From the NCBI GenBank assembly GCA_007693915.1, contig RECS01000105.1, positions 1-64,000 of the forward strand: DNA of 64,000 bases, given 5' to 3'. Positions 3,060 to 5,713 of this stretch are shown here, one piece after another; the first letter of the stretch is position 1, and each line of letters starts with the position of its first letter. Under the pieces are notes generated by a model. It did no database searches and had not been told where the DNA came from. It saw only the letters and a list, made by a program, of their open reading frames with translations. This DNA is from Saprospirales bacterium. GTDB taxonomy: Bacteria; Bacteroidota; Bacteroidia; Chitinophagales; Saprospiraceae. Both the position numbers and the translations under genes were made by a program.

Positions 3060-3737
3060 CTAAGTTAAGCGATTCTTTTTTTTTACATTGATCAATTTTA
3101 ACCTCCTGTTTACCCGCAGTTGAGACAAAAATTCCTCAAGTTTCTCAATCTCATTTTGTTTTTCAATGGTTGGAAATGGATTTTTTTCACCGGTAATAAA
3201 ATCATTGGTTGTGAAATCCATAGGGACAAGAGGATAAATAATGAGTTTAGGATTGTATTTGTTCTCTCTATCAATTCTAAATGACCGAATATCATTAAAG
3301 TCGATGTAATGAAAATCGGTCTTGTTTTTTCTGTAAAATTTAAAAAAAATGCCATTATCAGTTACAGCATAGGCAGTATTATGATTAGTTTTTCGAAGTG
3401 AAAGTGGAGAAAGTATAATGGAGAATATAAGCGAAATGAAAAAAAATACTCTATCCATTAGTCTGGGGCCTTCAATTATACCGTAAATAGCAAACAGCCC
3501 AGCAAGAACAAGCAGGATAATAACAATATAAGGGTGTAATGGAAATCTTAGATTTCTAAGTGACCAAAGCGTTAAAAAATGTCGAATCATTGGTTTGCCG
3601 GCCCATAATATATTCATATTTCCATGGCTTATTTTATGTATGTAATCCATGAAATGTCTATCCCTTCTGAAACCGTCGATGGCTTTAGGATTGATTGGCT
3701 TTAATTCAGAGATTTTCGACAAAAAATTGGCATTCAC
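3060..3737 (-). CDS. Two-TM membrane protein with PH-like domain
   Basis: 225 residues. After ~65 polar residues come two hydrophobic helices (PYIVIILLVLAGLFAIYGII and VFFFISLIFSIILSPLSL), then a soluble region beginning TAYAVTDNGIFFKF...FHYIDFNDIRSFRID. That arrangement (TM pair, then Y-x-V-T-D-x-x-I and a strand-rich stretch) resembles bacterial PH-domain (bPH_2/YdbT-like) membrane proteins. The end is strongly basic (RRLKLINVKKKN). It follows the MarR gene by 25 nt on the same strand, so the two are probably co-transcribed. A TAGGATT half-site (3751-3757) lies in that gap. Function unknown; the PH assignment is by pattern only. Confidence 0.6.
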   Translation of the reverse strand: MNANFLSKISELKPINPKAIDGFRRDRHFMDYIHKISHGNMNILWAGKPMIRHFLTLWSLRNLRFPLHPYIVIILLVLAGLFAIYGIIEGPRLMDRVFFFISLIFSIILSPLSLRKTNHNTAYAVTDNGIFFKFYRKNKTDFHYIDFNDIRSFRIDRENKYNPKLIIYPLVPMDFTTNDFITGEKNPFPTIEKQNEIEKLEEFLSQLRVNRRLKLINVKKKNRLT

Positions 3738-3762: not shown

Positions 3763-4377
3763 CTATATAGCTACCTCTTCATGTTCCGGGCAGTCTATTC
3801 GTAAATCTGCTACCTCTAATTTCTCCATCAGGAGATTACAAAAATGGCTTTTTGAATCGCTTTTATATTGATGATACCGGCAACTTAAACACATTCTCTG
3901 TAGGGTGATAATCCCTGTTTTATTGAGAAATGATATAATATCTAAAAGTTTTAATAGAAGAAGCTCTTTCTCCGTATCATTCATTTGTTCTATGGGCTTA
4001 CGAATATCCTGAGAAAATAAAGAAGTCTTTGCTGCTACCTCCATGCCTTTAGCTGTTAGGTGTAGTATTTGACTTCTGTTGTCGGTTGAATCAAATTCTT
4101 TACGAACCAGTTCCTTTTGTACCAGGACTCTAACGGAATCACTTATAGTAGCCTTGGTCATATTGAATTCATCAGCGAGGTAACTTACTTTTCGCTTTTT
4201 TAAATGGTGATTTTGTAAAAAAATCAGGATCTGAATCATGATGGGACTGAGGGAGAAATCCTTACTTTCCTGCCATAACAAAACCCTGAATGCCTGTGCA
4301 ATCCTCTCCAAAGAGACGACAATCTTACTTTCAATATTCAGGTTTTGAAAATCCAGGTTAAAGTCCGATTCTTTCAT
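3763..4377 (-). CDS. MarR-family regulator with C-terminal Cys cluster
   Basis: 204 residues. Residues ~25-140 form a MarR winged helix-turn-helix: LSPIMIQILIFLQNHH, then VSYLADEFNMTKATISDSVRVLVQKELVRK (recognition helix TKATISDSV), then wing residues DSTDNRSQILHLTAKG. The last 45 residues are unusual for MarR: C163-x2-C166-x13-C180-x15-C196 with His169, His178 and His199 nearby, ending DCPEHEE. That arrangement could bind zinc or an Fe-S cluster, or form a thiol switch. Upstream on the same strand lie a secreted protein and a glutaredoxin-like gene preceded by matching TAGGAATCCTA palindromes, the natural candidates for its operators. No such palindrome is visible before marR itself. Ligand unknown. 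Confidence 0.85.
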   Translation of the reverse strand: MKESDFNLDFQNLNIESKIVVSLERIAQAFRVLLWQESKDFSLSPIMIQILIFLQNHHLKKRKVSYLADEFNMTKATISDSVRVLVQKELVRKEFDSTDNRSQILHLTAKGMEVAAKTSLFSQDIRKPIEQMNDTEKELLLLKLLDIISFLNKTGIITLQRMCLSCRYHQYKSDSKSHFCNLLMEKLEVADLRIDCPEHEEVAI

Positions 4378-4440
4378 AAGTATAGTACATCTATTTTTTA
4401 TTCAATTGCAAGATAATAAAATATTGCCATCTAACTTACA

Positions 4441-4448
4441 CAAAAGTA
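4441..4448 (-). promoter_or_regulatory. Putative -7 box TACTTTTG for the marR gene
   Basis: Reads TACTTTTG on the minus strand, a TAnnTTTG match about 63 nt before the marR ATG and directly after the terminator hairpin of the preceding operon. No clear -33 element. Confidence 0.4.
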
Positions 4449-4452
4449 AAGA

Positions 4453-4478
4453 GGCGTCTGAAAATGCTTTCAGACGCC
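4453..4478 (-). terminator. Rho-independent terminator
   Basis: Perfect 11-bp stem GGCGTCTGAAA / TTTCAGACGCC with the 4-nt loop ATGC. On the minus strand it is followed by a T-rich tract (TCTTTACTTTTG). It closes the glutaredoxin/secreted-protein unit before marR. Confidence 0.85.
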
Positions 4479-4502
4479 CTGTTACTTAGGAACGGAATTA
4501 AA

Positions 4503-5258
4503 TTAATTTTGCTTTTTTACAGAATAGGGTAAAGATAAGTCTCCACTTGCCACTCCGTATACCTTATAAACTCCTAACATCGGCATATCGCCATTTCCAT
4601 GTGAAGAATCGCCCTCTCCATCACCGGTGTTGACCATCATAAAACAGGTGACAACATCAAACTTTAAATCGGTATTGAATCGAATTCTATAATCCGGTAC
4701 AACGACCCTGATTTTGTTGCCGTCTGTAATGATTTGAAAACCAGGAGAGTCCATATACATTGGCATTCCCGGATTTGTCGGAGGCATGACTACTGATTCA
4801 TCCTGAGGATCAAATTCCTTAACGGAAAAGCCACCTTCTACTCTGTCATCCTGATTGAGAACCACCCAATGTGGGTGCCAAATTGCTCCATCGTTATGAT
4901 AGTTTCCATCTCCACTTTCGTCCCACAAAGGTGTGTCATCAAAATCGGGATGAGAAGTTAAAGCTAATGCGAGAATGCCCTCTGCCTTCCCAAAGCCTAC
5001 CACCTCCGGACTGAGATTAGTTGGGAATACATATCCTAGAACCGGAGCTCCATTAAGTTGCCCTGCTGGTACCGGTTTTGTATTACCTGCTAAACCCTCT
5101 ACTTCTACCTCCCAAACTGTGGCAGCTATCCAAGGATGATGGGTAACACTTGCATTTTTAATTTGGAAGTCTTTGTTGTCGTAATTACTACAATTTTCGC
5201 AGGCATATAAATCGAAAAATGAAGCAATGAATACGGTAATAAAAATAAGTTTTTTCAT
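4503..5258 (-). CDS. Secreted protein of unknown function
   Basis: 251 residues starting with a signal peptide (MKKLIFITVFIASFFDLYACENC). The mature part begins with a Cys pair (C-x-x-C) and contains WIAATVWEVEVEGL, GAPVLGYVFPTNLSPEVVGFG, LALTSHPDFDDTPLWDESGDGNYHND, IWHPHWVVLN and a His/Gly-rich DGEGDSSHGNGDMP near the end. Several conserved-looking His and Asp residues (HPDFDD, HPHW) could bind a metal, but I do not recognise the family. It lies 43 nt downstream of the glutaredoxin-like gene, with a TAGGAATCCTA palindrome 11 nt before its ATG, and is followed by a strong terminator. Probably periplasmic or extracytoplasmic and under the neighbouring MarR regulator (inference). Confidence 0.7.
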   Translation of the reverse strand: MKKLIFITVFIASFFDLYACENCSNYDNKDFQIKNASVTHHPWIAATVWEVEVEGLAGNTKPVPAGQLNGAPVLGYVFPTNLSPEVVGFGKAEGILALALTSHPDFDDTPLWDESGDGNYHNDGAIWHPHWVVLNQDDRVEGGFSVKEFDPQDESVVMPPTNPGMPMYMDSPGFQIITDGNKIRVVVPDYRIRFNTDLKFDVVTCFMMVNTGDGEGDSSHGNGDMPMLGVYKVYGVASGDLSLPYSVKKQN

Positions 5259-5269
5259 GATTTGTTAAT

Positions 5270-5282
5270 TTAGGAATCCTAA
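5270..5282 (-). promoter_or_regulatory. Operator-like palindrome TTAGGAATCCTAA
   Basis: A perfect odd palindrome (TTAGGA-A-TCCTAA, 13 bp) in the gap between the two minus-strand genes, 11 nt before the ATG of the secreted-protein gene. Its 11-bp core recurs at 5581-5591. Size and symmetry suit a MarR dimer. Confidence 0.65.
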
Positions 5283-5301
5283 CTAATAGGTTTAAAAAAA
5301 G

Positions 5302-5535
5302 TTAACTAATTAAATCCTCAATTGAAGCTCCATAATTAATATGAAGAATAGTACCTGAAGAAGTGACTAAAGCCGGTACTGATTTCAGACCAGCTTCTTT
5401 TGCAGGTAATATCTTTTCCGGTTGATCTCCTAAATTGACAATCTCGACACTATCCTTATCAATCAATTGGAGAATTTCATTTTCAGCGCTTTTGCAAACG
5501 GAGCAACCCGCATGATAAAAAATGTTTTTTTTCAT
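5302..5535 (-). CDS. Small glutaredoxin/thioredoxin-fold protein
   Basis: 77 residues, no signal peptide. Reads MKKNIFYHAGCSVCKSAENEILQLIDKDSVEIVNLGDQPEKILPAKEAGLKSVPALV. This is a minimal thioredoxin fold: C11-x-x-C14 active site after the first strand and a cis-Pro loop (SVPALV) at ~58-63. It is about the size of a glutaredoxin or NrdH. It should act in the cytoplasm on disulfides or metal-bound thiols. It is the first gene of a minus-strand unit with the secreted protein, driven by a promoter whose -7 box is abutted by the second TAGGAATCCTA palindrome. Precise substrate unknown. Confidence 0.8.
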   Translation of the reverse strand: MKKNIFYHAGCSVCKSAENEILQLIDKDSVEIVNLGDQPEKILPAKEAGLKSVPALVTSSGTILHINYGASIEDLIS

Positions 5536-5570
5536 TGGTAATGTTTTTTATTTAAAATATTTTGTCACTG

Positions 5571-5591
5571 CAAATATAGGTAGGAATCCTA
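5571..5591 (-). promoter_or_regulatory. Promoter with abutting TAGGAATCCTA operator
   Basis: On the minus strand TATATTTG (5571-5578) is a perfect TAnnTTTG -7 box 36 nt before the glutaredoxin-like ATG. Two bases upstream sits the palindrome TAGGAATCCTA (5581-5591), the core of the element at 5270-5282. A protein bound there would block RNA polymerase between the -33 and -7 elements, as expected for a repressor. Confidence 0.7.
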
Positions 5592-5713
5592 ATTAAATAA
5601 ATATTTTACAAGATTTTTTTTAGATGCATTCCATTTTTATCTTTAAGTAGCCATAAAATCGTGGTAATCTTTCATCCGATTTCTAAAAATCTTTTTAAAC
5701 TCTAAAAAAAAAT

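Follow-up and report, generated by a model that had tools for sequence, protein, structure and literature searches.

The MarR-family regulators AdcR and ZitR bind zinc reversibly, and do so at sites other than a tail of the kind described here. Protoglobin, truncated haemoglobin and cytochrome c'-beta are all haem proteins that bind gases or NO, and the first two also bind O2 and CO. According to a 2025 review no cytochrome c' has an established physiological role, a function in NO defence having been proposed, and the Thermus protein TtCP-beta forms an FeNO complex (PMC11928373). The NO regulators that have been reviewed are NsrR, NorR and the Crp/Fnr-type proteins HcpR, NnrR and DNR, and no MarR-type regulator is found among those covered there (PMC1274295, PMC13370916). 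NsrR recognizes the motif gATGyAT-N5-ATrCATc (PMC1274295).

The window, that is, the whole stretch of 64,000 nucleotides analysed here (contig RECS01000105.1 of a Saprospirales bacterium), contains a short-form operon, TRX-SEC-MarR, with the following features:

3763..4377, minus strand: MarR-family winged-helix regulator, 204 aa, assigned from Pfam MarR_2, orthologues and an AlphaFold2 model
3781..3891, minus strand: C-terminal tail of the regulator, residues 163-199, candidate sensor site (C-x2-C-x13-C-x15-C plus H178 and H199)
4441..4448, minus strand: TACTTTTG, -7-like TAnnTTTG box before MarR, probable separate MarR promoter, judged by its position after the terminator
4452..4479, minus strand: intrinsic-terminator-like hairpin between SEC and MarR (12-bp stem, -18.7 kcal/mol, z -6.7)
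4503..5258, minus strand: SEC, exported protein of unknown function, 251 aa, putative target
5268..5284, minus strand: operator 2, 17 bp, one mismatch, core 5271-5281, between TRX and SEC
5302..5535, minus strand: TRX, small thioredoxin-fold protein, 77 aa, CSVC active-site motif, putative target
5571..5578, minus strand: TATATTTG, -7 box of the TRX promoter
5578..5594, minus strand: operator 1, 17 bp, two mismatches to AGTTAGGANTCCTAACT, core 5581-5591

The MarR fold of the regulator is ordinary. The protein scores 33.7 bits against Pfam MarR_2 (PF12802, cut-off 27), its AlphaFold2 model (pLDDT 83) matches MarR structures of the MepR/ST1710 type with E 4.5e-7 and, at the sequence level, the neighbouring genes have a palindromic operator at their promoter, as is characteristic of the family. 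One scan of species genomes yielded 72 full-length or near-full-length orthologues with 47-81% identity, and no second copy was found in the 3.43 Mb of the source genome. Scores stay under every NCBIfam MarR equivalog cut-off, including that of AdcR/ZitR (NF038251, 29.6 bits against 175). All four cysteines of the regulator (C163, C166, C180 and C196) lie in the tail and the core has none; hence the reactive cysteine that OhrR-type proteins have near the N terminus is absent.

The full operator is a 17-bp palindrome, AGTTAGGANTCCTAACT, of which TAGGAATCCTA is the core. The preliminary description of this DNA had located two identical cores at 5271-5281 and 5581-5591, the first within the 13-bp palindrome TTAGGAATCCTAA (5270-5282), and had noted a -7 box abutting the second by 2 nt; all of this was confirmed, TATATTTG lying on the minus strand two bases from the core at 5581, and only the length had to be extended, from 11 to 17 bp. 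A TTTA at 5598-5601, 19 bases upstream of this box, occupies the position of the TTTG found in relatives. Pattern searches of the whole 3,434,146-base genome (TAGGAWTCCTA) returned the core twice, both times at this locus, and the reversed control pattern once. The hairpin at 4452-4479 is strong and terminator-like in both directions. As it is followed by the box TACTTTTG, MarR in the window is probably transcribed from a separate promoter, one that lacks a full palindrome.

Two labels had to be changed. The gene called glutaredoxin-like scores 13 bits against the Glrx-like domain, where 26 are needed. Its product is a small protein with a CxxC motif and a thioredoxin fold, related to PDB 2k8s; the family profile matches 2k8s, deposited as Thioredoxin, with E 1.4e-30. 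The gene called PH-domain shows no PH match in Pfam or NCBIfam and has a counterpart only in the closest relative (L001). As the window holds 13 such 7-mers, the TAGGATT half-site before it is a chance occurrence, so that the gene was rejected as a regulon member. A membrane protein with weak STM3941-family similarity, encoded at 3060-3737, is retained beside the regulator only in that same relative.

Orthologues of the regulator occur mainly in Bacteroidota, and also in Balneolaceae, Ignavibacterium (Ignavibacteria) and Acidobacteria; Thermus and Proteobacteria have remoter relatives. Since the tail had supplied some of the words of the first orthologue search, 297 Bacteroidota genomes were searched again by profile. 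The regulator is present, patchily, in 22 of them (about 7%), and in none of the five other sampled genomes of the source genome's own family. Plasmid matches, those of Bacteroidota included, have about 30-46% identity to the regulator, and the plasmid relatives in Thermus, Ensifer, Paraburkholderia and Sphingomonads keep the four cysteines. At 73 loci the same-strand companions are TRX (66), DUF2024 (50), SEC (22) and sometimes a globin. The DUF2024 protein has a PDB relative, 2hfq. SEC is a conserved family with no match in Pfam, NCBIfam, PDB sequences or PDB folds, the fold comparison resting on a low-confidence model (pLDDT 72; other models 33-51).

The palindrome recurs at orthologous loci, which the preliminary description had proposed as a check. 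Allowing one mismatch, AGTTAGGANTCCTAACT was found at 45 places in 28 of the 37 orthologue-bearing genomes searched, against 3 for the reversed control, and all 45 copies fall, by their coordinates, in the operon of the regulator. At this stringency the regulon would thus be confined to the operon. Only one of these copies lies outside the collected loci, in a second TRX-DUF2024-MarR operon of Parapedobacter (G026, L079) that has its own operator. Sixty genomes without the regulator gene contained one near-exact site, as did the control, and the difference in operator presence between carriers and non-carriers is highly significant (Fisher p 2e-15, counted on genomes). With up to two mismatches 161 sites were found in the loci, 139 of them a short distance upstream of a gene that belongs to one of the operon families: TRX (64), DUF2024 (31), SEC (27), protoglobin (8), MarR (7) or truncated haemoglobin (2). 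A site equivalent to operator 1 stands upstream of TRX in 71 TRX loci (up to four mismatches), the equivalent of operator 2 follows the TRX stop in most relatives, and an operator precedes SEC in most SEC carriers. The pairing of operator and regulator is strongly supported by this comparative evidence, and it is very likely that the regulator binds AGTTAGGANTCCTAACT as a local regulator.

Upstream of TRX the operator sits within TTTG-N19-TATATTTG, filling the spacer between the TTTG (-33) and TAnnTTTG (-7) promoter boxes, and in 57 of the 71 TRX promoters the palindrome and TAnnTTTG share one base, the last of the former and the first of the latter, that is, the offset is fixed. Since a protein bound there would cover the spacer, steric repression, rather than activation, is the natural reading. 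The geometry is that expected of a repressor and fits the earlier proposal that the MarR core represses its neighbours.

The palindrome of the TRX-DUF2024 gap is enclosed in a longer dyad, GCCCYRYAA...TTRYRGGGC. Its pairs covary, and as RNA it is predicted to form a stable hairpin (z about -6); the TATCTTTG box overlaps the 3' end of this hairpin in 22 of 38 cases. The element looks like a TRX terminator merged with an operator and promoter that serve the genes downstream. In the TRX-DUF2024 or TRX-MarR gap of L009, L010, L016, L026, L047, L054 and others, the loop of this covarying hairpin holds the operator and a TATCTTTG box overlaps its 3' end, terminator, operator and promoter thus occupying one sequence. 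In the TRX-SEC gap of L048, L050, L052, L054 and L063 two neighbouring repeats that resemble the operator make up a larger inverted repeat in front of SEC. Directly after the TRX -7 box about 32 loci (e.g. L063, L053 and L024) have a conserved dyad, GGCAATANTGCC, with the variants GACA..TGTC and AGCA..TGCT, always 11 bases past the operator and at the likely mRNA 5' end. A 4-4-4 dyad occupies this position in 35 of 71 TRX promoters, where 5.8 are expected, and is missing from the window; it is possibly a 5' hairpin or the site of a second regulator.

The tail agrees with its first description as C-x2-C-x13-C-x15-C with three histidines (169, 178 and 199). Its cysteines were conserved in 100% of 73 orthologues, with H178 in 67 and H199 in 69, and all four are kept in all of the approximately 100 homologues examined, so that the loss among orthologues that had been named as a refuting result did not appear. 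They were retained even in divergent homologues retrieved without the tail as a search word. Of 100 sequences nearly all have a third gap of 15 residues, and the middle one ranges from 10 to 17. Almost no variation is seen at R193 and D195 either, and a QRMC motif leading into the tail is common to the orthologues. No significant match to any known domain was obtained in PDB, Pfam or NCBIfam. The sole Pfam family matched by more than one tail was HiPIP (PF01355; 4 of 27, best E 0.021, below the cut-off). In hhalign only the CxxC was aligned with HiPIP, and 9 of 150 shuffles with fixed cysteines did equally well, hence the likeness is mostly that of the CxxC. The tail may well be a metal or Fe-S site and is likely to be the sensor of the signal.

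The nature of the signal is suggested by the partner genes in other species. Within the first set of 73 loci protoglobin is encoded at L005, L013, L018, L066 and L068; TRX is missing in four of these five, against 7 of 73 overall, so that protoglobin tends to replace TRX behind the operator. Divergent loci repeat the association, with protoglobin behind the operator or directly before MarR in L094, L096, L099, L103 and L108, and a cytochrome P460/c'-beta-fold gene directly before MarR in L097, L100, L101 and the Thermus plasmid pTT27 (L110). An exact palindrome lies 40 nt upstream of this gene in L097. The best PDB match of the L097 protein is 6hih (McCP-beta) and that of the Thermus protein is 7ead (TtCP-beta), identical over the aligned mature chain, which places both in the c'-beta branch. 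In T. thermophilus HB27 the pTT27 gene order is TtCP-beta, tailed MarR relative, YwiC-like gene. Further genes were met in or near single loci: HTHP and hmpA near the regulator in Hymenobacter, RIC/YtfE with hemerythrin in L052, L053, L055 and L060, RIC in L029, and an HPP membrane gene behind an operator site in L053. NosZ is present in 15 of 22 carriers against 85 of 275 non-carriers (p 7e-4), a statistic that ignores phylogeny; by genus, with phylogeny likewise ignored, the figures are 14/19 and 60/122 and the difference is borderline (p 0.05). RIC was rejected as a co-occurring marker, its frequency in carriers (11/22 against 97/275) not being significantly raised (p 0.17). Both RIC and NosZ are absent from the source genome, whose operon has no haem protein; these points speak against an NO signal, as does the binding of O2 and CO by protoglobin and truncated haemoglobin. 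With RIC and NosZ lacking, NO exposure would be external or nitrite-derived in this organism.

These partners make NO or reactive nitrogen the best single reading of the signal, held somewhat above even odds, and the regulator is probably an undescribed switch of that kind. The best explanation as a whole, to which we give a probability of about 0.55, is a local MarR switch that responds to NO or reactive nitrogen through a Cys4-tail sensor. A repressor, dimeric as assumed from its family, would occupy AGTTAGGANTCCTAACT and block transcription of TRX and, via the second operator copy, of SEC. Its Cys4 tail would hold a metal or an iron-sulfur cluster and act as sensor; attack by NO or reactive nitrogen species would disrupt it and the repressor would leave the DNA. 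Derepression would then supply proteins for thiol repair and NO binding, Trx and SEC here, and elsewhere protoglobin, truncated haemoglobin or cytochrome c'-beta. The small redox- or metal-responsive regulon of the preliminary description is thus retained as a regulon, given the recurrent palindrome and the conserved cysteines, with partners that point more specifically to NO or reactive nitrogen.

At most loci the only partners are Trx, SEC and DUF2024, which would fit other thiol stresses equally well. The main rival is therefore a switch for thiol oxidants or electrophiles (HOCl, peroxide, quinones, disulfide stress) in which oxidation of a Zn(Cys4) tail derepresses Trx and SEC and the haem proteins are secondary additions. 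CxxC...C...C patterns often bind Zn, the commonest partner is a Trx-like gene (66 of 73 loci) and Sphingomonads show USP-MarR-Trx-redoxin around the regulator relative; however, protoglobin, truncated haemoglobin or cytochrome c'-beta recur at the same position in distant lineages and no peroxidase, catalase or Msr family is a recurrent operon member, so that this explanation is rather unlikely. A sensor of Zn, Fe, Cu or haem, with the tail binding its effector reversibly, would suit the four cysteines and conserved histidines and the weak resemblance between the core and the AdcR family (29.6 bits), but that score is far under the cut-off of 175 and genes for metal transporters, siderophores or chaperones are not recurrent in the loci, which makes it improbable. 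Least probable is a tail that serves as a structural Zn or Fe-S knob while a small molecule is sensed in the usual pocket, at the dimer/wHTH junction where most known MarR proteins take their ligands, since the tail cysteines, surviving to Thermus and Proteobacteria, vary less than most of the core, itself well conserved.

Returning to the switch for NO or reactive nitrogen, operator and regulator together mark out a compact stress regulon, present in about 7% of the sampled Bacteroidota genomes, and provide a functional context for DUF2024 and SEC, two families previously without one. Cytochrome c'-beta and protoglobin, both lacking an established physiological role, become tied to one testable inducer, and the pTT27 locus of T. 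thermophilus HB27 offers a tractable model system. Nothing relevant was found among open-access papers on MarR proteins with such a tail, on DUF2024 function, on NE0084, or linking MarR with protoglobin or P460; the tailed subfamily, its operator and its regulon appear to be new, without description in the open-access literature searched. A broader proposal, which we hold at slightly less than even odds, is a new class of NO sensors: MarR repressors with a C-terminal Cys4 iron-sulfur (or Zn) tail, distributed patchily from Bacteroidota to Acidobacteria and distantly in Thermus and Proteobacteria, that would control cytochrome c'-beta, protoglobin, truncated haemoglobin, DUF2024 and SEC.

The regulator shares with MepR, ST1710, AdcR/ZitR and OhrR the winged-helix core, a palindromic operator overlapping the promoter and a location beside its targets, but it differs from them in the additional C-terminal Cys4 tail and, with respect to OhrR, in the missing N-terminal cysteine. 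The likeness to NsrR is one of analogy, that of an Fe-S/Cys sensor repressor that acts at a palindrome and controls globins and RIC, whereas the protein family is another (MarR rather than Rrf2) and the NsrR motif (PMC1274295) differs from AGTTAGGANTCCTAACT. HcpR, NnrR and DNR likewise respond to NO or nitrite stress, and HcpR is present in Bacteroidota (Bacteroides), but their fold and motifs are those of Crp/Fnr. The cytochromes c'-beta (McCP-beta, 6hih; TtCP-beta, 7ead) enter the comparison as target or partner genes in Thermus and the divergent loci, the open-access literature searched giving no connection of theirs with a MarR protein. If the tail is indeed an Fe-S sensor of NO, a further protein fold would be added to those of NsrR, NorR and the Crp/Fnr-type NO regulators.
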